From: Sphingopyxis sp. LC81
GTDB lineage: Bacteria > Pseudomonadota > Alphaproteobacteria > Sphingomonadales > Sphingomonadaceae
Length of the DNA: 64,000 nucleotides
NCBI RefSeq assembly: GCF_000756375.1
Contig: NZ_JNFD01000028.1
Coordinates: 1-64,000 of the forward strand
Direction of reading: 5' to 3'
Under the pieces are notes generated by a model. The model saw only the letters and a list, made by a program, of their open reading frames with translations. It searched no databases and was not told the origin of the DNA. Every line of letters begins with the position of its first letter. Within the stretch, counting starts at the first letter, position 1. Made by a program: the position numbers and the translations under genes. Shown here piece after piece: positions 35,102 through 51,175 of the stretch.

Positions 35102-36004
35102 ATGACGGTGGTGCGTGCGCCGATGCAGAGTGAATATCTGGGGACGGCGATCGATTTCGCCGCGCCGCTCGGCGAGCCCGCGCTGCTGGCGCCCGACAGC
35201 GTCCAGTGGCGCATCTACAAAAACCCGATCGCGCTCGGCATCGGCGGGATCGCCGCGGTGCTGCTCGAATTCGCCGAGCCGCGCATCCGGTCGGGGGTGT
35301 GGGACCATTCGACCTACAAGGCCGACCCGATCGGCCGCTCGCGCCGCACCGGACTCGTCGCGATGCTCGCCTGCTACGGCCCGGCGAGCAGCGCGAAGGC
35401 CGTCATCGGGCAGGTCAACCGCATGCACGGCAAGGTGAAGGGCGAGACGCCCGGTGGCACCAGATATCGCGCGCTCGACCCCGTGCTGCTCGACTGGGTT
35501 GCCGCAACCGCGTCCTATGGCTTCCTGATGGCTTACGACCGCTTCGTCCATCCACTCAGCGACGCCGACAAGGACCGCTTCATGGCCGACGGCGACGCGA
35601 TCGGGCGCGAGTTCGGGGCGCGGCATACGCCGCCGACGGTGGGCGCGTTCATGGCGATGATGGACGAACTCGAACCGCGCTTCGAACCGCATCCGATCAT
35701 CTTCGAATTCCTCGACATTATCCAGTCGGGCCGCGCGGCGCCGGGCGTGCCGCGATTCCTGCATCGTGCGATCGCGCGCGCGTCGGTGTCGCTGCTTCCC
35801 GGGCATATCCGGCGCAAGCTGGAACTCGGCCCGCGCTATGATCTGACGCGGCTCGACCGCACCGCATTACGGATCGCCGGCCGGCTTGCCGACCGTCATA
35901 TCGATCGCACCGCGCCGCATTGTCAGGCCAGCGTCCGCCTCGGCCTGCCGCATGATTTCCTTTTCAAATCACCCGCCGAGCAGCGGCGCTTGCTCGCCGC
36001 CTAG
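35102..36004 (+). CDS. DUF2236 oxygenase (MpaB / latex-clearing-protein type)
   Basis: 300-residue cytoplasmic protein of the DUF2236 family, which includes fungal MpaB and the rubber oxygenase Lcp, heme enzymes that cleave isoprenoid double bonds. Conserved signature: 'VWDHSTYKADPIGRSRRT' (about 68-85), followed by helical 'DPVLLDWVAATASYGFLMAYDRFV' and 'GREFGARHTPP'. No signal peptide, so unlike secreted Lcp it would act inside the cell. It lies 8 bp after the TonB receptor. Isoprenoid or other alkene cleavage is a family-based guess. Confidence 0.8.
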   Translation: MTVVRAPMQSEYLGTAIDFAAPLGEPALLAPDSVQWRIYKNPIALGIGGIAAVLLEFAEPRIRSGVWDHSTYKADPIGRSRRTGLVAMLACYGPASSAKAVIGQVNRMHGKVKGETPGGTRYRALDPVLLDWVAATASYGFLMAYDRFVHPLSDADKDRFMADGDAIGREFGARHTPPTVGAFMAMMDELEPRFEPHPIIFEFLDIIQSGRAAPGVPRFLHRAIARASVSLLPGHIRRKLELGPRYDLTRLDRTALRIAGRLADRHIDRTAPHCQASVRLGLPHDFLFKSPAEQRRLLAA

Positions 36005-37698
36005 CTGCAGCGATTAAAGCCGGCGCCGCGCACCGCGCGCCCAGGCGTCGCGCCGCTATGCTCGCCGTTCCGCAACACGCCAACGCCGTTGACGAACACG
36101 TCACGAACCCCGACCGAATATTGGTGCGGCTTCTCGAAGGTCGAGCGGTCGCCGATGGTCGCCGGGTCAAACACCACAACGTCAGCATAATAGCCGGGCT
36201 TCAGCGCCCCGCGATCCTTGATGCCCAGATTGGTCGCGGGCAGGGTGGTGAGCCGGTACACCGCCTGTTCGAGCGGGATCAGCTTCTCGTCGCGGACATA
36301 ACGGCCGAGCAGCCGCGCAAAGTTGCCATAGGTGCGCGGGTGCGACCCCGATTTCAGGAAGACACCCTCGGTCGCCTGCGACGCGGCGTCCGACCCGAAG
36401 CTCATCCATGGCAGCTGGACCTGCTTGCGCACATTGTCCTCGGACATCAGGAAATAGACGGTGCCGACGCGCGAGCCATCCTCGACGACGAGGTCCATCG
36501 CGGTTTCTTCGGGGCTTTTGCCGCGCATCGCCGCAACCTCGGCAAGCGTCTTTCCGGTCAGCGGTTTCAGCGCGTCATTCTTGAACCCCGACAGGATCAT
36601 CTTGTCGGCGCCCGCGCCGAAATAGAGATTTTCCCAATTGCTGCCGGGCTTCTTCATTTCTTCGGCGACGCGCGCGCGGATCGCGGGGTCTTTCAGCCGC
36701 TTGATCCACTCCTCGAGCCCGCCCGCCTGCACCCACGTCGGCATCGCGGCATCGAGCCCCGTCGCGCCGGCGGTATAGGTGTACATGTCGGTCGTGATCT
36801 TAAGCCCTTCGGCCCGCGCGTCCTCGATCTTTTTCACGATCGTATCGAGCTTGCCCCAGTTGCTACGCCCCGCCATCTTGAGGTGATAGATTTCGGCGGG
36901 CGCGCCCGACCGCCGCGAAATGTCGATCAGCTCGTCGACGGCTTCCTCGATCCGGTCGCCTTCGGAGCGCATATGGCTAATATACATGCCGCCGCATTTC
37001 GCGGCCTCGCTGGTCAGCGCGACAAGCTCGTCGGTTTCGGCATAAGATCCGGGCGCGTAGATGATCGAACTGCCGACCCCCATCGCGCCCTCGTTCATCG
37101 CCTGCTTCACCAGCGCGCGCATCCGGGCGAGCTGTTCGGGCGTCGGGTCGACATCGCCTTCGCCCAGCTCATGGACGCGCACGGTCGCAGCGCCGATGAA
37201 GCTCGCGACATTGGTCGAAACGCCGCGCTTTTCGAGCCAGGACAAATAGTCGCCGAGGCTGGTCCACTCGATCGGAAATTTGATGTCGCCCTGCCGGTCG
37301 GTTTCCAGCGCCTTCATCGTCGCGTTCACCGGCCCCATTGACCAGCCTTCGCCCATTACCTCCAGCGTGACGCCCTGGCGGATATCGCTCTGGCTCTTGG
37401 GGTCGGCGATCAGCGACTCGGTCGCCCAGCTCAGCATGTTGATGAAGCCCGGCGCGACCGCCATGCCCTTCGCCGCAACCTCGGTCTTCGCGGTGCCGTC
37501 GACTTTGCCCACCGCGACGATGCGGTCGTCCTTGATCGCGACATCGCCGACGACGGGTGCCTTGCCCGACCCATCGTAGATCGTCCCGCCGCGGATGATG
37601 AGGTCGTAGGCGGGCGCCTGTGCGGCCACCGGCACGGATACCAGCATCGAACTGCAAAGCAGTAGGAAGGACGGTGCGACGCGCCGGTGGGATGCCAT
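36001..37698 (-). CDS. D-aminoacylase-like amidohydrolase, exported
   Basis: 565-residue member of the N-acyl-D-amino-acid deacylase branch of the amidohydrolase superfamily, with a signal peptide cut after 'VPVAAQA' (about residue 27). It would release D-amino acids in the periplasm. The second-half metal ligands are present (His242 in 'YISHMRSE', His272 in 'EIYHLKMAG', Asp in 'FGSDAAS'). The first HxH is replaced: 'PGFINMLSWA' gives Leu89 and Trp91. The Cys96 position of the Alcaligenes enzyme is Glu ('MGEGWS'). This matches a mononuclear or different-metal subgroup. It follows the XRE-cupin gene by 23 bp in one operon. Confidence 0.85.
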   Translation of the reverse strand: MASHRRVAPSFLLLCSSMLVSVPVAAQAPAYDLIIRGGTIYDGSGKAPVVGDVAIKDDRIVAVGKVDGTAKTEVAAKGMAVAPGFINMLSWATESLIADPKSQSDIRQGVTLEVMGEGWSMGPVNATMKALETDRQGDIKFPIEWTSLGDYLSWLEKRGVSTNVASFIGAATVRVHELGEGDVDPTPEQLARMRALVKQAMNEGAMGVGSSIIYAPGSYAETDELVALTSEAAKCGGMYISHMRSEGDRIEEAVDELIDISRRSGAPAEIYHLKMAGRSNWGKLDTIVKKIEDARAEGLKITTDMYTYTAGATGLDAAMPTWVQAGGLEEWIKRLKDPAIRARVAEEMKKPGSNWENLYFGAGADKMILSGFKNDALKPLTGKTLAEVAAMRGKSPEETAMDLVVEDGSRVGTVYFLMSEDNVRKQVQLPWMSFGSDAASQATEGVFLKSGSHPRTYGNFARLLGRYVRDEKLIPLEQAVYRLTTLPATNLGIKDRGALKPGYYADVVVFDPATIGDRSTFEKPHQYSVGVRDVFVNGVGVLRNGEHSGATPGRAVRGAGFNRCS

Positions 37699-37721: not shown

Positions 37722-38345
37722 TCAGCCGTGCAGGCTCATCAGGCTGTCCATCAGCCCGTCGTCGGCGCTTGAGCAGACGCCGAGAACCAGCGCCTCCTCA
37801 TATCCCTCGGCGACGACATAGGCGTGGCCCATCGACGAATCGAGATAGATGCCCTGACCGGTTTTCAGCGCGACCGGGTCGTAGAATTCGGTGTGAATCT
37901 CGACCTCGCCTTCAAGAACGAAGATGAATTCCTCACCCTGATGTCGGACGAGATCGCCGAATTCGCGGGCGCTGTGCGCGCGGATCCGCGTGATGATCGG
38001 GATCATCCGCTTTTGCCGCAGGTCGGTGCAGAGATAGTGATAATCGTAATTGTCGGTGGTGACGCGCACCGCCTGGTCGATCGTGCCGACGCTGCGACGG
38101 CCGGTCACGCGCGGCGAACTGTCGCCTTCGTCTTCGGCGAACAGGTCCGACATGCGGATGTTGAGTCGCTGGCTGAGCTGCTGGAGCTTGTCATAGCTCA
38201 GCGTCAGCCGGTCGTGCTCGACCTTCGACAATGTCGAGACCGGGATGCCCGATTTCGCGCTCATTTCCTTGAGCGTCCAGCCGTTTCGCGAGCGAATGCT
38301 CTTCATCACCGTGCCGAGCGTTGGCGGGGCTCCGCGATCAGCCAT
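37722..38345 (-). CDS. XRE-family regulator with cupin domain
   Basis: About 207 residues. The N-terminal helix-turn-helix (about 10-65: 'WTLKEMSAKSGIPVSTLSKVE') binds DNA; the C-terminal cupin (about 125-190: 'VRHQGEEFIFVLEGEVEIHTEF' ... 'DSSMGHAYVV') binds a ligand. This is the usual layout for regulators of amino-acid and D-amino-acid genes. Starts at 38345 (MADRG) or 38357 are possible. It is divergent from the serine hydrolase operon, and the likely sites it controls are the two similar promoters at 38365 and 41496. Confidence 0.88.
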   Translation of the reverse strand: MADRGAPPTLGTVMKSIRSRNGWTLKEMSAKSGIPVSTLSKVEHDRLTLSYDKLQQLSQRLNIRMSDLFAEDEGDSSPRVTGRRSVGTIDQAVRVTTDNYDYHYLCTDLRQKRMIPIITRIRAHSAREFGDLVRHQGEEFIFVLEGEVEIHTEFYDPVALKTGQGIYLDSSMGHAYVVAEGYEEALVLGVCSSADDGLMDSLMSLHG

Positions 38346-38364
38346 TAATTTTTCCATTCCATAT

Positions 38365-38393
38365 TTGACAATTTTCCAATCAGGATCATTATG
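38365..38393 (+). promoter_or_regulatory. Promoter with shared operator-like spacer (copy 1)
   Basis: TTGACA (38365-38370), 17-bp spacer and ATTATG (38388-38393) form a good sigma-70 promoter reading toward the serine hydrolase at 38488. The spacer ATTTTCCAATCAGGATC closely matches the spacer of the promoter at 41496, which suggests a common regulator site. Confidence 0.6.
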
Positions 38394-38487: not shown

Positions 38488-40467
38488 ATGCGTTTCATCC
38501 GAAAGGCGATGATTGGGCTGGCGGCTTTTGCCGCGCTGCCGCTGGCGGCGCAGGGGCCTGTGCCTGCACCGACCGTAAAGAAAGCCGAAGCTGCCGCGGT
38601 TCCGGTTGCAAAAACCGCCGCAGCGCCGGTCGCGCTCGACGCCAAGGATCTTGAGGCTTGGCTCGACGGCTATCTGCCCTATGCGCTCGAACGCGCGCGC
38701 ATTCCGGGCGCGGTCGTCGTCGTCGTGCGCGGCAATCAGGTCGTGCTCCAAAAGGGCTATGGCTTCGCCGACGTCGCTAAGCGCGCGCCGGTCCTGCCCG
38801 AGACCACGCTGTTCCGTCCCGGATCGGTGTCGAAGCTCGTCACCTGGACCGCGGTGATGCAGCAGGTCGAGGCGGGCAAGATCGACCTCGACAAGGACGT
38901 CAACGCCTATCTCGATTTCAAGATTCCGCCCTTTGAGGGCAAGCCGGTGACGATGCGCAACATCATGACGCACACCGCGGGTTTCCAGGAATCGATCCGC
39001 CATCTGATCAGCAGCGATCCCAAAGCGGTGATGACGCTGAAGAAGCAGATGCCGCTCGCGCTGCCCGACCGCGTCTTCGCGCCCGGCACGACGCCCGCCT
39101 ACTCGAACTATGCGACCGCGCTCGCGGGTTATATCGTCGAGCGGGTGAGCGGCCAGGATTTCGACGATTATGTCGACAATCATATCTTCAAGCCGCTGGG
39201 CATGGCGCATTCGACCTTCCGCCAGCCTCTGCCCGCCAATCTCGCGCCGCATATGGCAAAGGGCTATCCCGACATCACGCAAAAGGCGAAGCCGTTCGAG
39301 ATCGTCGTCCCGGCACCCGCAGGCAGCCTGTCGGCGAGCGGTGCCGATATGGGCAAGTTCATGATCGCGCACCTGGGTGACGGCGCGGGCCTCATGAAGC
39401 CCGAAACCGCGAAGCAGATGCATGATTTCAAGGCGCCCGGCGTCGGCCCGCTCAACAGCATGGCGCTCGGTTTTTACGAGCAATGGGTAAACGGCCACCG
39501 CGCGATCGCGCATGGCGGCGACACTGTGTGGTTCCATAGCTATCTGTGGCTGTTCCCAGACGCCGACATCGGCGTCTATATCTCGATGAACAGCGCGGGG
39601 ACGCAGGGCGACGCGGGCGCGATCCGCAGCGCGTTGTTCCATAAATTCGCCGATCGTTATCTGCCGGGTGCCGACAAGCCGGGTCAGGTCGATGCGAAGA
39701 CCGCCAAAGAACATGCGCAAATGATGGTCGGCCATTATGTCAGCAGCCGTGGCAGCTTCACCAATTTTGCGAGCCTGTTCGGTCTGCTCGGCCAGTTGAC
39801 GATCTCGTTGACCGAGGACGGCAAGATCACGCTGCCGGCGCTCGACGGCCTTGGTGCAGGCGCACGCGACTGGGTCGAGGTCGAGCCCTTCGTATGGCGC
39901 GACACCGGCACCGGCGAGCGTGTTGCCGCCGAGGTCAAGGACGGCCGCGTCGTGCGCTGGAGCGTCGACGGCGGTTCGCCCTTCATGGTGTTCGAACCCG
40001 CCCCGGCGAGCGTCAATGCCGCGTGGCTCAATCCGGCGCTAATCTTCGCCTTCGGCATCATCCTGCTCGCGGCGCTGGCGTGGCCGGTGCGGGCGCTGGT
40101 ACGCCGCAACTTCAAGACGGACTTCGCGCTCGAGGGCAAGGCGCGCCGTGCTTACCGCCTGTCGCGCGTCTTCGCCTGGCTCGCGATCGGCGCGCTCGCC
40201 GGGTGGATCGGGCTGATCGCGGCCTTCTCGGCCGATATCGGCAGCCTCGGCGGCCCGCTCGACTGGCTGATCCACCTGCTGCGCATCCTGACGCCGCTCG
40301 CCGCCTTCGGGCTGCTCGCGACGGCGGGCTGGCACTTGTGGCTCAGCATCAAGGACAAGCGCCGCTGGACGATGAAGCTTGGCGCGGTGCTGCTGATCCT
40401 CGCCGCGCTGATCCTCGTCTGGGTGACGCTCGTCTTCCATCTCTATGGCTTCGGAATGGTCTATTGA
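38488..40467 (+). CDS. Serine hydrolase (class C beta-lactamase/DD-peptidase fold) with C-terminal membrane domain
   Basis: 659 residues. A signal peptide (to about 21), then a penicillin-recognising serine hydrolase domain with 'PGSVSKLVTW' (SxxK), 'PAYSNYATAL' (YxN) and 'IAHGGDTVW' (HxG). After a linker come four hydrophobic segments (about 505-655, e.g. 'PALIFAFGIILLAALAWPV'), anchoring it in the inner membrane with the catalytic domain outside. Candidate roles are D-aminopeptidase, D-amino-acid amidase or peptidoglycan peptide hydrolase, favoured by neighbours. Its stop overlaps the DgcA-like ATG by one base (TGATG). Confidence 0.87.
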   Translation: MRFIRKAMIGLAAFAALPLAAQGPVPAPTVKKAEAAAVPVAKTAAAPVALDAKDLEAWLDGYLPYALERARIPGAVVVVVRGNQVVLQKGYGFADVAKRAPVLPETTLFRPGSVSKLVTWTAVMQQVEAGKIDLDKDVNAYLDFKIPPFEGKPVTMRNIMTHTAGFQESIRHLISSDPKAVMTLKKQMPLALPDRVFAPGTTPAYSNYATALAGYIVERVSGQDFDDYVDNHIFKPLGMAHSTFRQPLPANLAPHMAKGYPDITQKAKPFEIVVPAPAGSLSASGADMGKFMIAHLGDGAGLMKPETAKQMHDFKAPGVGPLNSMALGFYEQWVNGHRAIAHGGDTVWFHSYLWLFPDADIGVYISMNSAGTQGDAGAIRSALFHKFADRYLPGADKPGQVDAKTAKEHAQMMVGHYVSSRGSFTNFASLFGLLGQLTISLTEDGKITLPALDGLGAGARDWVEVEPFVWRDTGTGERVAAEVKDGRVVRWSVDGGSPFMVFEPAPASVNAAWLNPALIFAFGIILLAALAWPVRALVRRNFKTDFALEGKARRAYRLSRVFAWLAIGALAGWIGLIAAFSADIGSLGGPLDWLIHLLRILTPLAAFGLLATAGWHLWLSIKDKRRWTMKLGAVLLILAALILVWVTLVFHLYGFGMVY

Positions 40468-41471
40468 TGGCGACGCAAAGCATAAAGGAATTGACGCTCG
40501 ACCTTCGGGTCGAGCGTTTTCCCTATCACCAGCCGTTCCGTATTTCGGGGCATGTCTTCACCGAAACCGCGCTGCTCGTCGCCGAGCTTTCGGACGGGAC
40601 GCATGTTGGGCGCGGCGAGGGCGCCGGGGTCTATTATCTCGGCGATGACATCGACCATATGCTGGCCGAGGCGACGCGCGTGCGCGGCGCGATCGAAGAC
40701 GGCGCGACGCGTGACGATTTGCAACAGCTCCTCCCTCCGGGCGGGGCGCGCAACGCGCTCGACTGCGCCTTCTGGGATCTTGAGGCCAGACAGACGGGAA
40801 CTCCGGTCTGGAAACTTGCCGGGCTGAGCCCTCCCAAGGCGCTGCGCTCGACCTTGACGCTTGGTGCCGACCGCGCGGAGGCGATGGCGAAAGCCGCGCT
40901 CGCGATCGACCCGGACGCCCCGGTCAAGGTCAAGCTCACCGGCGACCTTGCCGATGATATCGCGCGCGTCGTCGCGATCCGCACCGCGCGGCCGCACGCG
41001 TGGATCGGGGTCGATGCCAACCAGGGCTATGACGTCGCGACCCTCGCCGAATTGCTGCCCGTGCTGGTGTCGGCGCGCGTCGCGCAGCTCGAACAGCCGC
41101 TGAAGCGCGGGCGCGAGGCCGATCTCGACGGCCTCAAGCGGCCCTTGCCGTTCGTCGCCGACGAAAGCGCGCTGTCGCTCGCCGACACTGCCTCGCTCGT
41201 CGGCCGGTTCGACGTGGTGAATATCAAGCTCGATAAATGCGGCGGGTTGACCGAGGGGCTGGCGATCGCGCGGCAGGCGAAGAAGCTCGGCCTCGACGTC
41301 ATGGTCGGCAATATGATGGGCACCAGCCTGTCGATGGCGCCCTCCTGGCTCGTCGGCCAGCTTTGCGACATCGTCGACCTCGACGGGCCGACCTTTCTCG
41401 CGCGCGATCGCGATCCGGGCGTCAGCTATCGCGACGGCCTGATCCATTGCCCGCCCGAAATCTGGGGATGA
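40467..41471 (+). CDS. dgcA: Dipeptide-epimerase-type enolase-superfamily racemase (DgcA-like)
   Basis: 334-residue member of the muconate-lactonizing/dipeptide epimerase subgroup. Catalytic lysines lie in 'PVKVKLTGD' (KxK) and 'NIKLDKCGG'; metal ligands are Asp in 'GVDANQGY', Glu in 'QLEQPL' and Asp in 'FVADES'. The late 'DLDGP' is the dipeptide-recognition DxD. Such proteins are annotated as L-Ala-D/L-Glu epimerases. In the D-glutamate route reported for marine proteobacteria a homologue (DgcA) racemises N-acetyl-D-glutamate and pairs with DUF1611 DgcN, which is also present here (44910). Which substrate applies is undecided. The ATG overlaps the previous stop. Confidence 0.85.
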   Translation: MATQSIKELTLDLRVERFPYHQPFRISGHVFTETALLVAELSDGTHVGRGEGAGVYYLGDDIDHMLAEATRVRGAIEDGATRDDLQQLLPPGGARNALDCAFWDLEARQTGTPVWKLAGLSPPKALRSTLTLGADRAEAMAKAALAIDPDAPVKVKLTGDLADDIARVVAIRTARPHAWIGVDANQGYDVATLAELLPVLVSARVAQLEQPLKRGREADLDGLKRPLPFVADESALSLADTASLVGRFDVVNIKLDKCGGLTEGLAIARQAKKLGLDVMVGNMMGTSLSMAPSWLVGQLCDIVDLDGPTFLARDRDPGVSYRDGLIHCPPEIWG

Positions 41472-41495
41472 TGACAAATATATGTCCTAAATGGG

Positions 41496-41524
41496 TTGAC
41501 AATTTTCTGATTAGGACAATAGTC
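41496..41524 (+). promoter_or_regulatory. Promoter with shared operator-like spacer (copy 2)
   Basis: TTGACA (41496-41501), 17-bp spacer and ATAGTC (41519-41524) lie upstream of the M19-like gene. The spacer ATTTTCTGATTAGGACA matches that at 38371-38387 in most positions. An additional GTCCTAA (41484-41490) is inverted relative to TTAGGAC (41511-41517), so a dimeric operator straddling the -35 is possible. Confidence 0.6.
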
Positions 41525-41555
41525 TAAATTGAAACTATAAAAGAGGGAGGTTGGG

Positions 41556-42698
41556 ATGACGGCGTCGTTCCAGATTACGCGCCGCGCGGCACTCGCGGGC
41601 GTGGTGGGTATCGCTGTGTCGGCGCCGATGATCAACCGGGGTGCCTATGCCTTTGCCGCGGCTCCGGGGAAGAGCTACTCGCGCCGCGCGGTCGATCTGG
41701 TCGCCTCGTCGCTCGTCATCGACATGCTCGCGCCGCTCAAGATCACGCTCGACGCAAATTATATCGCGCACCGGCTGACCGACGCCGAAGCCGCCGAGTT
41801 CCGGGCATCGGGCATCACCGGCTTTCACAACGCTTATGGCCTTGGCGGCCCCAACGCAAAGGCGCAGGCGCTCGAATTCCTCGCCGGGTGGCAGGGCTTC
41901 GCCGGGCGCAACAGCCATGTCTTCACGCTTGTGGATACGGTGCAGGATCTCGACAGGGCCAAGGCCGACAAGAAATGTGCGGTCATCATGGGCATCCAGA
42001 ATGCCGAGCATTTCGAGAAGATCGAGGATGTCGCGCTGTTTCGCCGCCTCGGCCTGCGCTGCGCGCAGCTCACCTATAACACGCAAAACCTGATCGGGTC
42101 GGGCAGCACCGAACGCGTCGACGGCGGGGTCAGCGATTATGGCGCCGCGATCATCGCCGAGATGGAAAAGCAGCGCATGCTCGTCGACGTCTCGCATTGC
42201 GGCGACAAGACGACATTGGACGCCATCGAAATCGCCAAGGGGCCGATCGCGATCACGCACAGCAACGCCCGCGCGCTCGTCGACCACCCGCGCGTCAAGA
42301 CCGACGCGGCGATCAAGGCGCTCGCGGCGAAGGGCGGGGTGATGGGGATCACCGGGGTCCGCATGTTCGTTCGCACGAGCGACCCGACCAATGTCGGGCA
42401 TATGGCCGACCATATCGACCATGTCGCGAAGCTGGTGGGTATCGACCATGTCGGCATCGGCTCGGACGCCGACCTGCACGGCTATGACGATATGAAGCCC
42501 GACGAATATGCTCTGCTCAAGGGCAGCTACAAGGGCAGCTACGCCTTTCGCGACAAGATCGACATCGATGGCTTCGACCATCCGCTCAAAACCTTCGATC
42601 TCGTCGAGGAGCTGATCCGCCGCAATTATTCGAACGAAAACATCCGGGCCGTGCTCGGTGGCAATTTCCGCCGCCTGCTCGCCCAAGTCTGGGGGTAA
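41556..42698 (+). CDS. M19 dipeptidase-family protein lacking first metal motif, Tat-exported
   Basis: 380-residue renal-dipeptidase-fold protein with a Tat-like N-terminus ('ITRRAALAGVVGIAVSAPM'). His ligands of the second metal half are visible ('VDVSHCGDK', 'AITHSNAR'), and 'IGSDADLHGYDD' matches the late Asp region. The expected N-terminal GHxD motif reads 'VIDMLAPLK' (residues 54-62), so both ligands are lost. The bridging-Glu region 'GIQNAEHFE' is also changed. It may be a single-metal peptidase, a lyase, or a distinct activity. GGGAGG precedes the ATG. It heads the TonB receptor-DgcN-transporter operon. Confidence 0.83.
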   Translation: MTASFQITRRAALAGVVGIAVSAPMINRGAYAFAAAPGKSYSRRAVDLVASSLVIDMLAPLKITLDANYIAHRLTDAEAAEFRASGITGFHNAYGLGGPNAKAQALEFLAGWQGFAGRNSHVFTLVDTVQDLDRAKADKKCAVIMGIQNAEHFEKIEDVALFRRLGLRCAQLTYNTQNLIGSGSTERVDGGVSDYGAAIIAEMEKQRMLVDVSHCGDKTTLDAIEIAKGPIAITHSNARALVDHPRVKTDAAIKALAAKGGVMGITGVRMFVRTSDPTNVGHMADHIDHVAKLVGIDHVGIGSDADLHGYDDMKPDEYALLKGSYKGSYAFRDKIDIDGFDHPLKTFDLVEELIRRNYSNENIRAVLGGNFRRLLAQVWG

Positions 42699-42702
42699 GA
42701 CG

Positions 42703-44889
42703 ATGAAACAGGGACTCTTTATTGCAGCAAGCATCGCCGCGGTCGTCGCCGCTATGCCGGCGCAGGCGCAGGACGCTGCCGCCGTCGAAACGAGCGGCGA
42801 AATCGTCGTGACCGCGCAGAAACGCACGCAGAATGTGCAGGACGTGCCGATCTCGATCGCCGTCGTCAGCGGCGAGGCGCTGCAGGAACAGGGCTCGGCT
42901 TCGCTCGTCGACTATGCGGGCTACGTCCCCGGCATGAACGTCAGCAACAGCGGCACGCCGGGGCAGACAACGATCACGCTGCGCGGCGTCGCGCCGCTCA
43001 ACAATAGCCAGACCGTCGGCATCTATCTCGACGACGCGCCCGTGGGGTCGAGCGCGATCTATAACCGCGCCGGGGCGTTCACGATCGACCTCATGCCCTA
43101 TGATCTGCAACGGATCGAGGTGCTCAAGGGCCCGCAGGGCACGCTCTATGGCGCGAGCTCGATCGGCGGCCTGGTGAAATATGTCACCGTCCAGCCGAAC
43201 ACGAACGCGTTCAGCGTCAAGGCGGGCGTCGAAGGTTTCGCGATCAAGGGCGGCGACGGGCTCGGCTGGGGCGCGCAGGCGATGGTCAATGTGCCGATCG
43301 TCCAGGACAAACTCGCGGTCAGCGGCAGCTTTGCCTGGCGCAGCACCCCGGGCTGGGTCGACAGCGTCAATAATGCCGCGCTGAAGGACCAGAATGATTA
43401 TGAACAGCGCGGCGGCCGCGTCGCGCTGCTGTGGACGCCGACGCCCGATCTCAACGTGAAGCTGGCGGGCATCTGGCAGTCGCTCGATTCCGAAGGCAAT
43501 GGTCTTTATGCTGCCGACCTCACCGGCCGGCGGCTCGGCGACGGGCGCTCGTACAATAATTTTGTCCCCGAATCCTTCGACGTCGATCTCGACTATTATT
43601 CGGCGACGATCGACTATGATTTCGGCGCCGCGACGCTGACCTCGGCAACGACATACAGCAAGACGCAGAGCGCGCAGGTGCAGGACACGAGCTATGCCTT
43701 CGGCGTACTCTTCCCGCTGCTCACCGGCGGCGCGATTCCTCCCGGTATCACGCCCTTCGCGCTCGACCTCGGCCTCAAGAAATGGACGCAGGAGGTGCGG
43801 CTCGCCTCGCCGAGCGGCGGACGTTTCGAATGGCTGATCGGAGGTTTCTTCACCGACGAGAAGACGAGCAATTCGCAGCTTGTCCGCTCGTTCGACATGG
43901 CGGGTAACCCGATCGCACCGCTCGATCCGCTCGCGACTGTCGGCTTGCCCGCGACCTACAAGGAATATGCGGTCTTCGGCAACGCGACCTTCAAGCTCAG
44001 CGAGCAGTTCGAAATCACCGGCGGCCTACGTTGGGCGCGCAACGAACAGACCTTCCGCCAGATCAGCTCCGGCGCGATCGTGCCGCAGGCCGACGATCCG
44101 GGCGCATCGTCCGAGGATGTCTTTACCTATTCGATCAGTCCGCAGTTCCACATCAACGAAGACGCGATGCTCTATGCGCGTCTCGCCACCGGCTATCGTC
44201 CGGGCGGCCCGAACGTCATCGTTCCCAACGTGCCGCCGACGGTCGATGCCGATCGGATGAAAAACTATGAGATCGGACTGAAGGCCGATTTCGCGGATCG
44301 CATGGTCTCGGTCGATGTCGCGCTCTTCTTGATGGATTGGACCGACATCCAGGTCGTGCGCTCCTTCGGCGGCGTGTCGGGCGGCGCCAACGGCGGCAAG
44401 GCGCGGAGCAAGGGCGTCGAGGGCAGCTTCGCGCTGCGTCCGACGCCCGGCCTGACGATCAGCGCGACGGGCAGCTATACCGACGCGGTGCTCAGCGAGG
44501 ATGTGCCAGACATCAGCGGGGTCGACGGCGATCGCCTGCCCGCGGTGCCGAAGTTCAGCGGTGCGCTGCGCGCCGATTATGAATTCGAACTTGGCGGCGG
44601 CAACAAGGGCAGCTTCGGCGTCGGCGTCCGCCACGCGAGCAGCCGCCTGTCGCTGGTCGAAAGCGATCCGCTCGTCGCGCGCGCCAAGCCCTATACGTCG
44701 GTCGATCTCAATGCGTCGGTGACGTTGGGCGATCACTGGACAGTGCGTGCTTATGCCCGCAATCTGCTCGACAATAAGGGAGAGATGGCGCGGTCGACGA
44801 TGGCCGACGGGCTCAACCGGCCGAGCTTCCTCGCGATCTCGCCGCTGCAGCCGCGGACGATCGGCGTTGCGCTCGACATGGCCTTCTGA
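42703..44889 (+). CDS. TonB-dependent receptor (D-amino-acid/peptide island)
   Basis: 728-residue outer-membrane receptor starting 4 bp after the M19-like stop. The signal peptide ends 'AAMPAQAQ' near residue 22. Plug: 'EIVVTAQKRTQNVQDVPIS', 'ITLRGVAPLNN', 'IEVLKGPQGTLYGASSIGG'. It ends 'GVALDMAF'. Position between an exported dipeptidase-like protein and DgcN-like enzyme suggests it imports a D-amino-acid-containing peptide or peptidoglycan fragment; this is context only. Confidence 0.93.
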   Translation: MKQGLFIAASIAAVVAAMPAQAQDAAAVETSGEIVVTAQKRTQNVQDVPISIAVVSGEALQEQGSASLVDYAGYVPGMNVSNSGTPGQTTITLRGVAPLNNSQTVGIYLDDAPVGSSAIYNRAGAFTIDLMPYDLQRIEVLKGPQGTLYGASSIGGLVKYVTVQPNTNAFSVKAGVEGFAIKGGDGLGWGAQAMVNVPIVQDKLAVSGSFAWRSTPGWVDSVNNAALKDQNDYEQRGGRVALLWTPTPDLNVKLAGIWQSLDSEGNGLYAADLTGRRLGDGRSYNNFVPESFDVDLDYYSATIDYDFGAATLTSATTYSKTQSAQVQDTSYAFGVLFPLLTGGAIPPGITPFALDLGLKKWTQEVRLASPSGGRFEWLIGGFFTDEKTSNSQLVRSFDMAGNPIAPLDPLATVGLPATYKEYAVFGNATFKLSEQFEITGGLRWARNEQTFRQISSGAIVPQADDPGASSEDVFTYSISPQFHINEDAMLYARLATGYRPGGPNVIVPNVPPTVDADRMKNYEIGLKADFADRMVSVDVALFLMDWTDIQVVRSFGGVSGGANGGKARSKGVEGSFALRPTPGLTISATGSYTDAVLSEDVPDISGVDGDRLPAVPKFSGALRADYEFELGGGNKGSFGVGVRHASSRLSLVESDPLVARAKPYTSVDLNASVTLGDHWTVRAYARNLLDNKGEMARSTMADGLNRPSFLAISPLQPRTIGVALDMAF

Positions 44890-44909
44890 GCGAATTGGAG
44901 TTGGACAAG

Positions 44910-45950
44910 ATGAACGCGCCTATCGGCAGGCTGGAGGGCAGCCTGACCCTGCCGCAGCCTTATTTGCTGTTCCTCGGCGACACGACCAATGCGAGCTATG
45001 CCAAGACCGCCTTTGGTCTTGCCGACTGGGCGGGCGATCGCTGCACGGGCGAATGGGCGATCGACGGCTGCACCGTTTCGACCGGCCTGCCGCGCCTGTC
45101 GCCCGCCGACGCGCGCGCGGCGGGAGCGCGCTCGCTCGTGATCGGCGTCGCCAATCAGGGCGGCATCATCGGCGCATCCTGGGTCGCCGTGCTCGTCGAG
45201 GCGATGGAGGCGGGGCTCGATATCATCAGCGGGCTTCACACCAAGCTGACGAGCGTTCCCGCGCTCGTCGAGGCGGCTGCGCGCACGGGGCAGCGGCTCA
45301 TCGACATTCGCACCCCGCCGCCCGCGATACCGGTGGGGACGGGGCGCAAGCGCACCGGCAAGCGGCTGCTGACCGTCGGCACCGACTGCGCGCTCGGCAA
45401 GAAATATACCGCGCTCGCGCTGCACCGCGCCTTTGTGGCGCGCGGCCTCGATGCCGATTTTCGCGCGACCGGCCAGACGGGCATCATGATCGCGGGCGGC
45501 GGCATGCCGATGGACGCGGTGATCTCGGACTTCGAGGCGGGTGCGGCGGAAATGCTCAGCCCCGACGCGCCCGATAATCATTGGGATGTCATCGAGGGGC
45601 AGGGGTCTATCTTCAACCCCGCCTATGCCCCGGTGTCGCTAGGCCTGCTCCACGGCAGTCAGCCGGATGTGTTCGTCGTCTGTCACGACCCGACGCGCAG
45701 CGTGATCCTCGGCATGGAAAGCTTCGCCTTGCCTTCGGTGGAAGAGGTCATCGACATGACGATCCGTCTCGGTAGCCGGACCAATCCCGCGATCCGCTGT
45801 GGCGGTGTCAGCTTCAATACGTCGAGCTATGACGCGGACGAAGCCGAGGCGCTGATGGCGGCCGAACGGCATCGGCTGGGACTTCCGGTCGCCGATCCGA
45901 TTCGCGGCGGCGCGGCGTTCGACGCGCTCGTCGAAAGCATTCTCGCGTGA
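44910..45950 (+). CDS. dgcN: DUF1611 protein, DgcN-like D-glutamate N-acetyltransferase
   Basis: 346-residue DUF1611 protein with an N-terminal alpha/beta domain ('FLGDTTNASYAKTAFGLADW') and a P-loop-like 'VGTDCALGKKYTALAL' (about 153-168), then 'RATGQTGIMIAGGGMPMDAV' and 'VIEGQGSIFNPAYA'. In marine proteobacteria DgcN is reported to acetylate D-glutamate for racemisation by DgcA. Both partners occur here in neighbouring operons. The ATG at 44910 is used; a TTG at 44895 is possible. Its stop overlaps the transporter's GTG start by 4 bp, which supports an uptake link. Confidence 0.82.
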   Translation: MNAPIGRLEGSLTLPQPYLLFLGDTTNASYAKTAFGLADWAGDRCTGEWAIDGCTVSTGLPRLSPADARAAGARSLVIGVANQGGIIGASWVAVLVEAMEAGLDIISGLHTKLTSVPALVEAAARTGQRLIDIRTPPPAIPVGTGRKRTGKRLLTVGTDCALGKKYTALALHRAFVARGLDADFRATGQTGIMIAGGGMPMDAVISDFEAGAAEMLSPDAPDNHWDVIEGQGSIFNPAYAPVSLGLLHGSQPDVFVVCHDPTRSVILGMESFALPSVEEVIDMTIRLGSRTNPAIRCGGVSFNTSSYDADEAEALMAAERHRLGLPVADPIRGGAAFDALVESILA

Positions 45951-47086
45951 GTGTGGGCGAGACGGGCGGCGGGTCGAGCTGGTTTCAGCGCTACCTGCTG
46001 CCCGGATTTGCGCTGAAGGCCGTCATCATCGGAGGCGGCTATGCGACCGGGCGTGAGCTGGCCGAATATTTCGTGCCGTCGGGGCCATGGGGCGGGCTGT
46101 CCGCGATGCTGCTCGCGACCTTGATCTGGAGCATTGTCGCGGCACTGACCTTCGCGCTCGCGCTCAAACTCGGCGCCTATGATTATCGTAGCTTTTTCAA
46201 GGGGCTTCTTGGCCCCGCCTGGGTCGCATTCGAGGTCGCCTACATCATCTTCGTCGTCCTGATTCTCGCGGTGTTCGGCGCTGCGGCGGGCGCGATCGGC
46301 GCGGCGACCTTCGGTTGGCCCGAACTCGCGGGCGTCGTCCTGCTCGCGGTATCGATCGTCGCGGTCACCGCATGGGGCACCGGCGCGGTCGAGCAGATGT
46401 TCAAATATGTCTCGATCCTGCTCTACGCCGTCTACGGGCTGTTCCTGATCCTCGCGCTCGCCAGTTTCGGCGGGCTGATCGGGCAGGGATTCGCGAACGC
46501 GCCGCCGCCGTCGGGCAACTGGATGGCGGGCGGGCTCACCTATGCCAGCTATAATATCGTCGGCGCGGTGGTGATCCTGCCCGTGCTGCGGCACCTGAGG
46601 CACCAGCGCGATGCCGTCGTCGCGGGGCTGATCGCGGGGCCGCTGTCGATGCTGCCCGCGATCCTCTTCTTCGTCGCGATGATGGCCTTTTATCCCGCGA
46701 TCGGTGACGAGACTTTGCCGTCGGACTTCCTGCTCCGTCAGATGACGGTGCCGGGCTTCCATATCCTGTTCCAGGTGATGATCTTCGCCGCGCTGCTCGA
46801 AAGCGGGGCAGGCTCGGTCCATGCGATCAACGAGCGCATTTCGGGCGCGATCGAGAGCCGCGGTCGCCCGCCGCTCTCAACCGGCGCGCGCGCGATCATC
46901 GGCGCGGTGATCCTTACCGGCTGCATGTTCGTCGCGGGCGAGATCGGCCTCGTCGACCTGATCGCGAGCGGATACCGCTTTCTCGCCTGGCTGTTCCTCG
47001 CGGTGTTCGTCCTGCCGCTACTCACCATCGGGACTTGGCGCCTGCTGCGCCCGTCCACCGCTCCCCATATGGAGGCTTTGCCATGA
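45947..47086 (+). CDS. YkvI-type LeuT-fold membrane transporter
   Basis: 379-residue inner-membrane protein with about ten helices. The first, 'LLPGFALKAVIIGGGYATGRELAEYF', carries the unwound-helix 'GGGYATGRE' pattern of LeuT-fold YkvI proteins; later come 'WGTGAVEQMFKYVSILLYAVYG' and 'MIFAALLESGAGSVHAINERI'. It begins at GTG overlapping the DgcN-like stop by 4 bp and overlaps the next serine hydrolase ATG by 4 bp. A role importing glutamate, D-amino acids or dipeptides is suggested by position; no substrate is proven. Confidence 0.83.
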   Translation: MSVGETGGGSSWFQRYLLPGFALKAVIIGGGYATGRELAEYFVPSGPWGGLSAMLLATLIWSIVAALTFALALKLGAYDYRSFFKGLLGPAWVAFEVAYIIFVVLILAVFGAAAGAIGAATFGWPELAGVVLLAVSIVAVTAWGTGAVEQMFKYVSILLYAVYGLFLILALASFGGLIGQGFANAPPPSGNWMAGGLTYASYNIVGAVVILPVLRHLRHQRDAVVAGLIAGPLSMLPAILFFVAMMAFYPAIGDETLPSDFLLRQMTVPGFHILFQVMIFAALLESGAGSVHAINERISGAIESRGRPPLSTGARAIIGAVILTGCMFVAGEIGLVDLIASGYRFLAWLFLAVFVLPLLTIGTWRLLRPSTAPHMEALP

Positions 47087-48654
47087 AACGCCTGCTTGCC
47101 CTGTCGCTGATGCTGTCGGTCGCCGTGCCTGCATGGGCCGAACCGCCCGCCGATATCGGCGAAAGCGTCGAGACGCTGCGCAAGAAGGTCGGCGCCGCCG
47201 GCGTGTCGATCGCGATCGTCGAGGACGGAAAGACCACGCTGTCGCGCGGCTGGGGTGTGCGCAAGATCGGCGATCCGGCGCCGGTCGATGAACAGACGAT
47301 CTTTCAGACCGGCTCGACCGGCAAGGCGATGACCGCCGCTGCGCTCGCGATCCTCGTCGACGAGGGCAAGATCGCGTGGGACGATCCCGTCATCAAGCAT
47401 ATGCCCTGGTTCCGCATGTATGATGCGTGGGTGACGCGCGAAATCACGATCCGCGACCTGCTCGTCCACCGCAGCGGGCTCGGGCTGGGGCAGGGCGACC
47501 TGATGTTCGTGCCGCGCACGCACCTCACGCGCAAGCAGACGGTCGAGCGCGTCGCCTATCTGAAGCCGCAGACGAGTTTCCGTTCGGCCTATGCCTATGA
47601 CAATATCCTCTACGCCGTTGCCGGCCAGCTGATCGAGGAAGTCACCGGGCAAACATGGGAGGACTTCATCCGTGCGCGCGTGCTCCGCGCGGGCGGGATG
47701 AACAACGCGACGAGCGACAGCGAAGACCGCTTCCGCATCCCCAATCGGTCGTGGCCGCACGCGCGGCTATCGGGCGCGCTGCGCGGCCTCGGCCCGCAGG
47801 CGGCGCTCAACGAACGCGACGAACTCGGCCGCAACGGTGCGCCGGCGGGCGGGCTCGCGCTCAGCGCCGACGACATGGCGGCGTGGCTCAAGATCCAGCT
47901 CGCGCATGGCGCGCTGCCGGACGGCAAGCGGCTGTTCAGCGAGAAGCAGGCGGCTGAGATGTGGGCGCCCGTCACGCCGATGCCAATCTCGCCGCTTCCC
48001 GACCAGCTCAAGCCCGCGCAGCCAACGCAGCAGGCCTATGCGCTCGGCTGGCAGGTGCAGGATTATCGCGGCCACCGCATCATCCAGCATGGCGGCGGGG
48101 TCTTCGGGTCGATCACGCGCGTCGTGATGATCCCCGACAAGAATGTCGGTTTCGCGATCATGATGAACAGCGAGGACAGCGGCATGCTGCTCGGTCTCAC
48201 CTATGATTTGCTCGACCATTATCTGGATCAGCCCGACTATGGCTGGATCCAGAAATGGGAGGATTGGTATCAGTCGCGGCTCGCGGGCGGGGTCGAGTTT
48301 CTGAAACAGTCCAAGGCGTCGCCCGCGAAGTCGGGGCCGTCGCTCGCGCTCGCGGGCTACGCCGGGCGTTACCGCGACCCATGGTATGGCGACATCGTCG
48401 TCGGATCGAGTGCGAAGGGTCTCACGATCGATTTCACCTCGACACCGCGGATGGCGGGGCGGCTCAAACATTGGCAATATGACAGCTTCGTCACCGAGTT
48501 CGACGACCCGGCGATCGAGCCAGCCTATGTGACCTTCGCGCTCGACGCCGAAGGCAAGATTACCGGCGTGACGATGAAGGCGGTGAGCAAGATCGCCGAC
48601 TTCAGCTGGGATTATCACGATCTCGACCTGAAGCCCGTGGAGGACAAGAAGTGA
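47083..48654 (+). CDS. Exported serine hydrolase (class C beta-lactamase fold)
   Basis: 523 residues with a signal peptide ending 'PAWAEP' (about 19). Motifs: 'TGSTGKAMTA' (SxxK), 'YAYDNILYAV' (YxN as Tyr-Asp-Asn) and 'IIQHGGGVFG' (HxG). A C-terminal beta domain (about 425-520: 'YAGRYRDPWYGDIVVG') resembles the lipocalin-like domain of D-aminopeptidases. No beta-lactam resistance context; D-amino-acyl peptide hydrolysis in the periplasm fits the neighbours. The ATG at 47083 overlaps the transporter stop; its stop overlaps the lipoprotein dipeptidase start. Confidence 0.86.
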   Translation: MKRLLALSLMLSVAVPAWAEPPADIGESVETLRKKVGAAGVSIAIVEDGKTTLSRGWGVRKIGDPAPVDEQTIFQTGSTGKAMTAAALAILVDEGKIAWDDPVIKHMPWFRMYDAWVTREITIRDLLVHRSGLGLGQGDLMFVPRTHLTRKQTVERVAYLKPQTSFRSAYAYDNILYAVAGQLIEEVTGQTWEDFIRARVLRAGGMNNATSDSEDRFRIPNRSWPHARLSGALRGLGPQAALNERDELGRNGAPAGGLALSADDMAAWLKIQLAHGALPDGKRLFSEKQAAEMWAPVTPMPISPLPDQLKPAQPTQQAYALGWQVQDYRGHRIIQHGGGVFGSITRVVMIPDKNVGFAIMMNSEDSGMLLGLTYDLLDHYLDQPDYGWIQKWEDWYQSRLAGGVEFLKQSKASPAKSGPSLALAGYAGRYRDPWYGDIVVGSSAKGLTIDFTSTPRMAGRLKHWQYDSFVTEFDDPAIEPAYVTFALDAEGKITGVTMKAVSKIADFSWDYHDLDLKPVEDKK

Positions 48655-49841
48655 AGCGTTTCGCCATTCTGCTGACCGCAACCGCGCTGACCGCTTGCTC
48701 GCCGGGCGGCGATAAGCCCAAAGCGCCCGAAGCGCCGCTGCACAGCCGGATGCTCGTGCTCGACACGCACCTCGACACCCCGCTCCATTTCGAGCGCGCG
48801 GGCTGGAGCTTCGCCGACCGTCACGCACTCGCCGAAGACATGGCGCAGCTCGACATCCCGCGGATGAAGGACGGCAACCTCGATGGCGGATTCTTCGCCA
48901 TCTACACCGACCAGGGACCGCTGACGCCGAAGGGCTATGCCGACGCGCTCGCCTTCGCGCGAAAGCGGTCGGACCTGATCGATCGCACCATTGCGAAATA
49001 TCCGGATGCGATCGCGCCCGCGCTGACCGCGGCCGACGCGCTGCGGCTCAACAAGGAAGGCAAGCTGATCGCCTTCAAAGCGATGGAGAACAGCTATCCG
49101 CTCGGCGAAGACCTGTCGCTGCTTCAGGAGTTCTACAGCAAGGGCCTCCGCCTTGCAGGGCCGGTGCATTCGAAAGATAATCAGTTCGCCGACAGCGCGA
49201 CGGGCGAGGGGCGCTGGAAAGGGCTGAGCCCGCTCGGCAAGCAATGGGTCGCCGAGATGAACCGTCTCGGCATCGTCATCGATGCGAGCCATTCGTCCGA
49301 CGCGGCGTTCGACCAGATATTGGCGCTGTCCAAATATCCGATCCTGCTCTCGCACTCGAGCCTGCGCTCGGCCTATGACCATCCACGCAACCTCGACGAA
49401 GGGCGGCTGAAGGCGCTTGCGGCGAAGGGCGGCGCGATGTGCATCTCGACGATCTTCATGTCGGAAATGAACATGTCGCCCGCGCGCGCCGAACTGTTCG
49501 GCAAATATGAACGGATCGGCCAGATCACGCCTGCCGAGCAGGCCGATCTCAACCGCCAGTGGCGCGAACTCGACAAGACCGAGAAGCTCTGGGCGGCCGA
49601 TTTCGACGCCTATATGAAGATGGTGCTGCGCGCGATCGAGGTCGGCGGCGTCGACCATATCTGCTTCGGCGCCGACTGGGACGGCGGCGGCGGCCTGCCG
49701 GGCATCGAGGATATTTCGGCGCTACCCAAGGTCACCGAACGGCTGAAGGCCGCGGGCTATTCGGACGCTGATATCGAAAAGATGTGGAGCGGTAATATTC
49801 TGCGCGTGCTGGCGGCACAGGGGGAACGGTCGGCGCGCTAG
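48651..49841 (+). CDS. M19 membrane dipeptidase, lipoprotein
   Basis: 396-residue dipeptidase with complete M19 motifs, in contrast to the homologue at 41556: 'LVLDTHLDTPLHFE' (His-x-Asp), 'IAFKAMENSYPL' with the bridging Glu, 'IVIDASHSSDAA' and 'ILLSHSSLRSAYDHPRN'. A lipobox 'LTAC' at residues about 14-17 after a hydrophobic signal predicts a lipoprotein. It starts at GTG overlapping the previous stop by 4 bp. It would cleave dipeptides, often with a D-residue at the C-terminal side, in the periplasm. It is the last gene of the dgcN operon. Confidence 0.9.
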   Translation: MKRFAILLTATALTACSPGGDKPKAPEAPLHSRMLVLDTHLDTPLHFERAGWSFADRHALAEDMAQLDIPRMKDGNLDGGFFAIYTDQGPLTPKGYADALAFARKRSDLIDRTIAKYPDAIAPALTAADALRLNKEGKLIAFKAMENSYPLGEDLSLLQEFYSKGLRLAGPVHSKDNQFADSATGEGRWKGLSPLGKQWVAEMNRLGIVIDASHSSDAAFDQILALSKYPILLSHSSLRSAYDHPRNLDEGRLKALAAKGGAMCISTIFMSEMNMSPARAELFGKYERIGQITPAEQADLNRQWRELDKTEKLWAADFDAYMKMVLRAIEVGGVDHICFGADWDGGGGLPGIEDISALPKVTERLKAAGYSDADIEKMWSGNILRVLAAQGERSAR

Positions 49842-51175
49842 GCGCGGAAGCTTTTGGGGTCGATCCCGAGCTTCTGCATCTTGTCGTAGAGTGTCTTTCG
49901 GGGAAGCCCCAGCCGCGCCATCGTCTCGGCGATATTGCCGCGCGTTTGCGCCATTGTGTCGTGGATGATCGTCGCCTCGAACCGGCGCACCCGCTCGGCG
50001 AGCGGCGCGTCGGCGGGCATCGCCGACAGGCCGGGATCGGACGGCAGGTCGAGCACGACGCTATAGGCGAAATTCTTGAGCTCGCGGACGTTGCCCGGCC
50101 AGTCATGCTCGACGAGATGGCGGCGGATGCCGTCGTCGATCCGGAACCCCGCCATTCCCATCTTCGCCGCGGCTTCGTCGAGGAAGAAGGCGAAGGTCTG
50201 CGGAATGTCGGAGCGGCGTTCGCGCAGCGGCGGGATACGCAGCTTCACGACGTGCAGCCGGTAATAGAGATCCTCGCGGAAATCACCACTGCGCACCGCA
50301 CCCATCAGGTCGGTCTTGGTCGCCGCGACGACGCGCAGATCGACGGGTTCGGGCGCGCTGGCGCCGATCGGCTGGACCTCGCGCTCCTCGATCACGCGCA
50401 GCAGCTTCGCCTGCACCGAGGGATGCATCGTATCGATCTCGTCGAGGAACAATGTGCCGCGATGCGCGCTACGGATCCGCCCCACCTGACCGAGCTTGCC
50501 GCTGCTCCGGTCGATGAGGTCGCTGCCGAACAGCTCGGCCTCGGCCAGCTCCTGCGGCAGCGCCGCGCAGTTCACCGCAACCAATGATGCCGGGCTCCTC
50601 CGACTCTGGCGGTGGAGCATATGCGCGACGAGTTCCTTGCCGGTCCCCGTCTCGCCTTCGATCAGCACATCGATATCGGCCTGCGCGAGCTGCGTAATCG
50701 TCTCGCGCAGCCGGACCATCGCCGGGCTTTCGCCGATCAGCGGGCTGTCGATCGCCGCCGCCGCCGCTGTCAGCCGCCGGTTGTCCAAGATCAGCGCGCG
50801 GTGCGCGAGCGCGCGGCGCGCGATGCCGACGAGATGATCGGCGGCAAAGGGCTTGGCGAGGAAATCGAACGCGCCGTCGTGGAGCGCGCGCACCGCCATC
50901 GCTACATCGGCGTGGCCGGTGACCAGGATGACGGGGATGTCGAGATCGATCGCGTGGATCGCCGCGCGCAGTTCGAGCCCGTCCATCCCGGGCATGCGGA
51001 TGTCGGTGACGACGATCCCGGAGAAGCCGGCTTCGATGCGCGGCAGCACGCTCTGGGCGTCGGGAAATGCCTCGACCGCAATGCCCGCGAGGTCGAGCGT
51101 CTGGACATTCGCCTCGCGTAGCGCCGCATCGTCGTCGACGAAGAAGATCGTCTGCTCGCCGGTAAAAAAGCTCAT
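49838..51175 (-). CDS. dctD: DctD-like NtrC-family response regulator lacking GAFTGA
   Basis: 445 residues: receiver domain with phospho-acceptor Asp58 ('VVTDIRMPGMDG'), AAA+ domain with Walker A 'GETGTGKE' (174-181) and Walker B 'GTLFLDEID', and a C-terminal Fis-type helix-turn-helix ('AETMARLGLPRKTLYDKMQKL'). After 'ELFG' the sigma-54-contact loop GAFTGA is replaced by 'SDLIDRSSGK'. It may therefore not activate RpoN-polymerase and could work with sigma-70. It overlaps the dctB stop by 4 bp. Likely regulates the dctA symporter transcribed divergently beyond dctB. Confidence 0.88.
   Translation of the reverse strand: MSFFTGEQTIFFVDDDAALREANVQTLDLAGIAVEAFPDAQSVLPRIEAGFSGIVVTDIRMPGMDGLELRAAIHAIDLDIPVILVTGHADVAMAVRALHDGAFDFLAKPFAADHLVGIARRALAHRALILDNRRLTAAAAAIDSPLIGESPAMVRLRETITQLAQADIDVLIEGETGTGKELVAHMLHRQSRRSPASLVAVNCAALPQELAEAELFGSDLIDRSSGKLGQVGRIRSAHRGTLFLDEIDTMHPSVQAKLLRVIEEREVQPIGASAPEPVDLRVVAATKTDLMGAVRSGDFREDLYYRLHVVKLRIPPLRERRSDIPQTFAFFLDEAAAKMGMAGFRIDDGIRRHLVEHDWPGNVRELKNFAYSVVLDLPSDPGLSAMPADAPLAERVRRFEATIIHDTMAQTRGNIAETMARLGLPRKTLYDKMQKLGIDPKSFRA

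Follow-up and report, generated by a model that had tools for sequence, protein, structure and literature searches.

The closest described relative of the system examined here is the DgcN-DgcA route, which leads from D-glutamate (D-Glu) to L-glutamate (L-Glu) (PMC10845958) and comprises the activities EC 2.3.1.312 and 5.1.1.25 (PMC11747546). L-Ala-D/L-Glu epimerase (AEE; 1jpd, E. coli) shares its fold family and catalytic residues with the DgcA homologue described below. In the N-succinylamino acid racemase route, which Sakai et al. in 2006 reportedly described for aromatic and hydrophobic D-amino acids, a D-amino acid is acylated, racemised in its N-acyl form and deacylated, the same order of steps that we propose below, and the hydrolase is of the M20 type. 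The acyltransferase of that route is GNAT related (PMC8762209), whereas a DUF1611 protein takes this place in the locus studied here. We analyzed 64,000 nucleotides of Sphingopyxis sp. LC81 (contig NZ_JNFD01000028.1; the whole stretch is hereafter called the window), in which eight plus-strand genes at 38488-49841 form one compact operon encoding homologues of both DgcN and DgcA. The host is a bacterium of soil and water. On the sequence evidence, the best reading of this island is a co-regulated system of DgcN/DgcA type, re-specialised for peptides containing non-acidic D-amino acids.

The operon runs in the order S12 serine hydrolase (SH1), DgcA-like racemase, M19-family protein (M19a), TonB-dependent receptor, DUF1611/DgcN-like acyltransferase, YkvI-like transporter, a second S12 hydrolase (SH2) and a second M19 protein (M19b), with genes overlapping or nearly touching and a single sizeable gap of 84 bases 5' of M19a. 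All of these had been named in a sequence-only reading of the window and were found where it placed them; the D-aminoacylase homologue that it also counted in is present too, although it lies outside the operon, beyond a divergent regulator gene (Table 1). The two core enzymes resemble those of the DgcN-DgcA route in being a DUF1611 acyltransferase and an enolase-superfamily N-acyl amino acid racemase with the same catalytic residues, but both fall below the equivalog cut-offs, the DgcN homologue with 444.8 bits against the 480 required by NF041892 and the DgcA homologue with 360.1 against the 400 of NF042940. The latter also differs from AEE in lacking Arg24, which is replaced by Gly, and Arg53, and its score against the epimerase model NF011708 (230.5 bits) is under the cut-off of 343. 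Its catalytic residues (K154, K156, D183, E209, D232 and K254) are intact.

In order to place these enzymes, 249 genomes of the same family were searched, of which 66 contained DgcN at an E value of 1e-30, and 100 neighbourhoods were fetched (14 matches, mostly the weakest, were left unfetched, four with one in-frame stop and one with three). In the DgcN tree (105 sequences), 29 canonical copies, each near an Arg24-type DgcA, were split from the rest by a branch that had 100% support in the Shimodaira-Hasegawa-like approximate likelihood ratio test (SH-aLRT). The core island group (n = 57; fork support, 96) included 41 copies with a nearby DgcA lacking Arg24 and 16 with none nearby. Along similar lines, a DgcA tree built without the two pocket loops recovered a canonical clade (SH-aLRT, 99) and an island group of 40 rows plus three others (98), so that the island copies of both enzymes form clades separate from the canonical ones. 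The two-group comparisons below omit 19 of the 105 tree rows, namely, 11 intermediate ("mid") and 8 "other" ones, three of which (L094, L096 and L112) have an Arg24-bearing DgcA. The island type was present in 39 fetched genomes, 13 of which also had a canonical copy. Three genomes (G085, G201 and G242) had seven DgcN-family matches each, including further clades with other neighbours. We also used the best 80 of 533 named loci, to which some genomes contribute several and eight of which are identical at DgcN to loci in the fetched set; the nearest, such as those of Sphingopyxis sp. H053 and Root154, have DgcN homologues 97% identical to that of the window. As a wide control, phylum and class searches provided 57 DgcN loci above the cut-off, one of them with no DgcA found. 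This sample has one gene in common with the family-level set (L232 = L090), and both sets merged contain 84 distinct canonical copies of DgcA and 85 of DgcN.

Two conserved arginines, presumably of the substrate pocket, are missing from each island enzyme. At DgcA positions 28 and 57 (AEE Arg24 and Arg53), arginine was found in 56/56 wide and 29/29 family-level canonical sequences and in 0/40 island ones, both loop arginines being kept in all 84 distinct canonical copies. In DgcN, Arg46 was present in 56/57 wide and 29/29 family-level canonical sequences (84/85 distinct copies) and Arg272 in 57/57 and 29/29 (85/85), with neither in any of the 57 island sequences; the solved homologue 7xrj carries both. 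The window itself has G28 and Y57 in DgcA and A46 and L272 in DgcN. Two further DgcA positions followed the same pattern: position 31 was K or R in 55/56 wide and 28/29 family-level canonical copies and F in 40/40 island ones, while His236 was found in 56/56, 29/29 and 0/40, respectively. Among the tree rows outside the two groups, DgcN position 46 was arginine in 8/8 "other" and 0/11 intermediate rows and position 272 in none of either (0/8 and 0/11). Arg24 of AEE is presumed here, from the epimerase literature, to bind the glutamate side chain, and the other missing arginines (AEE position 53 in DgcA; Arg46 and Arg272 in DgcN) may do the same. Since all 40 island and all 29 canonical DgcA sequences share the six catalytic and metal residues and the DLD aspartates, and the residues that replace the canonical ones are themselves well conserved, the change looks like re-specialisation rather than decay. 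D-Glu is thus an unlikely substrate of the island enzymes.

The 4.4-Mb genome contains four DgcN-family and four full-length DgcA-family matches, among which only an adjacent pair on contig C6 clears both NCBI cut-offs (DgcN, 514.6 bits; DgcA, 431.6 bits). This canonical pair is accompanied by a LysR-type regulator and an SDF-type symporter. Contig C2 holds a second island, with a regulator, two SH1-like hydrolases, DgcN (70% identity), YkvI (68%), DgcA (63%), a D-aminoacylase-like gene and a Xaa-Pro-dipeptidase-like gene. A third locus, on contig C42, has DgcN (71%), M19a (62%) and S12 genes, and no DgcA was found in the 20-kb stretch. SH1 homologues of at least 43% identity were all at the three island-type loci, the next best in the genome having at most 34%. 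Contig C39 (G000, L013:10265-11257) carries a lone DgcA-like gene with Arg24 and an island-like second loop (VYYLGED), without a DgcN in the fetched stretch. With both enzymes under their cut-offs and in clades of their own, the arginines missing and a canonical pair elsewhere in the genome, the D-glutamate assignment made in the sequence-only reading probably does not stand, and its suggestion of muropeptides or poly-gamma-glutamate as the source found no specific support. What survives is a system of peptide and D-amino acid uptake and release around DgcN- and DgcA-like enzymes; the view that it extends the D-glutamate route is not supported.

The surroundings of island and canonical loci were compared by counting homologues within 9 kb at full-span loci (48 island and 28 canonical), with tblastn, because a simple gene caller overlooks some overlapping genes (e.g., a DgcA). 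Instead of the LysR regulator (at 40% identity or more, 0/48 island versus 25/28 canonical loci) and the SDF symporter (1/48, namely, this window, versus 18/28) of the canonical type, the islands have an XRE-cupin regulator (37/48 versus 0/28) and YkvI (35/48 versus 0/28), and their enzymes are embedded with predicted exported hydrolases and a TonB-dependent receptor. SH1 at 40% identity or more was found at 35/48 versus 0/28 loci, any S12 gene at 42/48 versus 6/28 and M19 at 30/48 versus 1/28. TonB receptors of any kind do not mark the islands (37/48 versus 18/28; Fisher p = 0.29), and D-aminoacylase homologues are commoner at canonical loci (24/28 versus 23/48). DgcA was nearby at 33/48 island and 28/28 canonical loci. 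Around the 80 best named relatives, SH1 was found in 76, YkvI in 73, SH2 in 71, DgcA in 69 and the regulator in 67. Rudaea and proteobacterial metagenome-assembled genomes (L185, L188, L194 and L202) have largely the same gene set in a changed order, which argues for functional linkage. Chance clustering was rejected because a large part of the genes is found again around relatives. A class-A-beta-lactamase-like gene (PF13354, L061 copy) was seen near 9 of 56 island loci (L031, L036, L037, L041, L043, L045, L048, L061 and L073).

An operator-like element, TTGACAATTTTCNRATNAGGA, is common to the region between the regulator and SH1 and to the promoter gap of M19a, and it shows at least 80% conservation when 49 and 31 named relatives (51 tried) are aligned. 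Allowing up to three mismatches, the whole genome had only four matches, all at the three island-type loci: two in the window, one upstream of the C2 island (two mismatches) and one on C42, between M19a and the receptor (three mismatches). The reversed pattern gave no match in the whole genome, and shuffling within the window gave a mean of 0.01. At the same threshold, 38 of 56 island loci carry the element, with exact copies at 15 of the 56, compared with 2/11 intermediate, 0/8 "other" and 0/29 canonical loci. Part of this conservation may reflect promoter sequence, because the element includes a TTGACA promoter-like hexamer. The XRE-cupin regulator may bind it, and together they would tie the three island loci of the genome into one regulon.

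Accessory genes at related loci provided clues to the substrate. An oligopeptide:H+ symporter (POT) was found at 13/56 island and 0/29 canonical loci (the L042 copy scored 276.5 bits in TIGR00924; cut-off, 130.2), an Lrp-type regulator at 9/56 versus 0/29 and a leucine-class dehydrogenase at 6/56 versus 0/29, as well as at 15/80 named loci, which partly overlap the 56. The dehydrogenase of L026 scored 270 to 296 bits against leucine dehydrogenases of the PDB, compared with 91 for the best glutamate dehydrogenase, and its best NCBIfam model was tryptophan dehydrogenase (283.7, under the cut-off of 600). Published work assigns dgcN to the use of acidic D-amino acids and of their amides (PMC12363236), and there is also a record of an acyltransferase that produces the N-acyl forms of D-Phe, D-Tyr and D-Trp, together with a racemase route (PMC8762209). 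Taken together, the POT, Lrp-type and leucine-class genes and these published routes speak for a D-amino acid that is not acidic and probably hydrophobic.

Localisation was judged with simple pattern and hydropathy tests, by which the DgcN and DgcA homologues of the island had no export signal. Signal-type N-termini, Tat-like (twin-arginine translocation) in M19a and with a lipobox in M19b, and the C-terminal helices of SH1 suggest that the island hydrolases are exported. SH1 keeps all S12 motifs (SxxK at 113, YSN at 205 and HGG at 342), as does SH2 (SxxK, HxG and a YDN read directly in the sequence), and M19b retains its metal ligands (HxD, E, H, H and D), like all 21 rows of at least 45% identity; these three proteins thus keep the catalytic motifs of their families. 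M19a and the D-aminoacylase homologue differ from theirs in lacking key metal ligands. In all 23 rows of at least 45% identity to M19a, the usual HxD and E are absent and, small variations included, IDMLAP and QN stand in their place; classical dipeptidase action of M19a was therefore dropped. The D-aminoacylase homologue of the window has GFINMLSW instead of GFxDxHxH, the HxH of which belongs to the first barrel strand, and HxH is kept in 25/25 canonical but only 6/28 island rows, so the island homologues may differ in chemistry. The YkvI-like protein had no Pfam or NCBIfam match at an E value of 0.001, and its structure model (mean predicted local distance difference test score [pLDDT], 88.2) matched LeuT-fold transporters, amino acid carriers first and also metal and nucleobase carriers. 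The best Foldseek match was 6f2g, a bacterial asc transporter (E value, 2.2e-06; template modeling [TM] score, 0.70 by query length). This predicted fold fits amino acid uptake and gives no specificity. As for the receptor, among 39 named islands with DgcN identity of at least 80% (drawn from L123-L164), it was 83 to 93% identical in 23, 51 to 60% in 4 and 33 to 40% in 12, as if it had been exchanged between otherwise similar islands.

We consider it somewhat probable that the island is a regulon for the use of peptides, through which D-amino acids of a non-acidic and probably hydrophobic kind are released, imported, N-acylated and racemised; the substrate, acyl donor, localisation and direction of flow are those that we infer from the genes. 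The TonB-dependent receptor would carry D-residue peptides into the periplasm, where SH1, SH2 and M19b would cleave them, possibly helped by M19a and the D-aminoacylase-like protein, and YkvI, in some relatives along with the POT symporter, would import the products. Once a free D-amino acid is in the cytosol, the DgcN homologue would N-acylate it, the DgcA homologue would interconvert the N-acyl-D and N-acyl-L forms and a housekeeping deacylase would then yield the L-amino acid. Among the ten proteins scanned, there was no GNAT acyltransferase, N-acyl-L-amino acid hydrolase or dedicated deacylase, and no search aimed at deacylases was made. The chemistry would thus follow that of DgcN-DgcA, with a side chain that is probably non-acidic and likely hydrophobic.

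Several observations weigh against this interpretation. The residue counts are not independent, because the pocket change amounts to essentially a single event in either tree. The activity labels of M19a and the D-aminoacylase homologue are weak because the usual metal ligands are missing, and both proteins may be without the activity of their namesakes. Xaa-Pro-dipeptidase-like genes are not island specific (7/48 versus 3/28 canonical loci), and POT homologues at ca. 35% identity also occur near 4 of 11 intermediate loci. The leucine dehydrogenase link is by itself not significant (Fisher p = 0.09) and comes from few lineages, and the genome's own copy of this class (77%) is unlinked to the islands. 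The island scores are not far under the equivalog cut-offs (444.8 of 480 and 360.1 of 400), and 36 of 40 island DgcA sequences have a new Arg214 on the presumed active-site face that could hold an acid in another way. These last two points, together with the intact catalytic residues, would suit a full route for D-Glu or acidic D-amino acids with different side-chain recognition, whose hydrolases free D-Glu from muropeptides; DgcN and DgcA are also the nearest named families, and for 26 of the 39 island-type genomes the fetched loci, a set that lacks some weaker copies, included no canonical DgcN. We regard such a route as unlikely. The conserved arginines are gone from both enzymes, the genome also has a canonical pair that comes with a LysR regulator and an SDF symporter, no SDF symporter lies near the other 47 full-span islands and some relatives carry accessory genes of peptide and leucine type.

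DgcN and DgcA are not always together, since no DgcA was found within 9 kb at 15 of the 48 full-span islands, including C42. This would fit a DgcA homologue that is a dipeptide epimerase, turning imported L,D-dipeptides into L,L forms that ordinary peptidases can cut, with a separate role in peptide handling for the DUF1611 protein. Dipeptide epimerases of varied specificity belong to this enolase subgroup (PMC13338154), and some islands have the POT di/tripeptide symporter. The aspartates of the DLDGP motif, which we take to bind the amino group of the dipeptide, are kept; the same aspartates are also kept in canonical DgcA, the protein scores higher against the DgcA model (360.1 bits) than against the epimerase model (230.5) and the two homologues are often paired (33/48), as in the N-acetylation route, all of which makes an epimerase improbable. 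An operon for another amide or peptide-like compound, such as a peptide antibiotic or an N-acyl amino acid, with D-amino acid conversion incidental, could explain the unusual metal centre conserved in every M19a row, the absence of HxH from most island D-aminoacylase homologues, whose substrates may be unusual, and the differing receptors. This we consider very improbable; the core enzymes remain nearest to D-amino acid families, and some of the relatives again have peptide transporters and members of peptidase families.

Table 1. Features of the island and its upstream flank in the window
Feature	Coordinates	Strand	Details
D-aminoacylase-like amidohydrolase	36001..37698	-	Predicted exported; HxH metal motif absent; close to 1m7j/1rjp D-aminoacylase (252.5 bits)
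XRE-type helix-turn-helix + cupin regulator	37722..38357	-	Divergent from operon
Operator-like element, copy 1	38365..38385	+	TTGACAATTTTCNRATNAGGA; between regulator gene and operon
S12 serine hydrolase SH1	38488..40467	+	Signal-type N-terminus; S12 domain; four predicted C-terminal membrane helices
DgcA-like racemase	40467..41471	+	Enolase superfamily, island type; NF042940, 360.1 bits
Operator-like element, copy 2	41496..41516	+	TTGACAATTTTCNRATNAGGA; inside 84-base gap before M19a
M19-family protein M19a	41556..42698	+	Tat-like N-terminus; variant metal centre (IDMLAP, QN); nearest solved chain 2i5g
TonB-dependent outer-membrane receptor	42703..44889	+	
DUF1611/DgcN-like acyltransferase	44895..45950	+	Island type; NF041892, 444.8 bits; alternative start ATG at 44910
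YkvI-like inner-membrane transporter	45947..47086	+	LeuT fold (model)
S12 serine hydrolase SH2	47083..48654	+	Predicted exported; with DUF3471
M19 dipeptidase M19b	48651..49841	+	Predicted lipoprotein (LTAC); metal ligands intact; 2rag, 413.5 bits

Directly 3' of the island, the window contains DctB/DctD two-component genes and an SDF symporter (49838-54534), and DctD likewise comes after the island at 8 of the 80 named loci (L123-L126, L132, L134, L137 and L141). These genes were rejected as members of the system, SDF and DctB each being found at 1 of 48 full-span island loci (for SDF, the window itself), and they are probably unrelated to it. Carriage on a plasmid was also dropped, as two plasmid records cover only short parts of the query (6% and 2%, near mode).

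The matches listed in a literature search (titles and beginnings of abstracts) included no description of this island type, which is weak evidence of absence. D-Amino acids belong to the slow-turnover pool of organic matter. If our interpretation is correct, DgcN-DgcA chemistry would extend beyond acidic D-amino acids, the annotation of dgcN as D-glutamate catabolism would be wrong for a whole clade and surveys that count dgcN could mis-assign it. Sphingomonads would also have loci devoted to peptides with D-residues, the receptors of which differ. More tentatively, and at somewhat less than even confidence, we suggest that sphingomonads and some gammaproteobacteria have a modular, multicopy regulon for peptides with non-acidic D-residues, similar to a polysaccharide utilization locus, in which exchangeable outer-membrane receptors and exported hydrolases are combined with a re-specialised DUF1611 acyltransferase and N-acyl amino acid racemase and by which hydrophobic D-amino acids would become usable.

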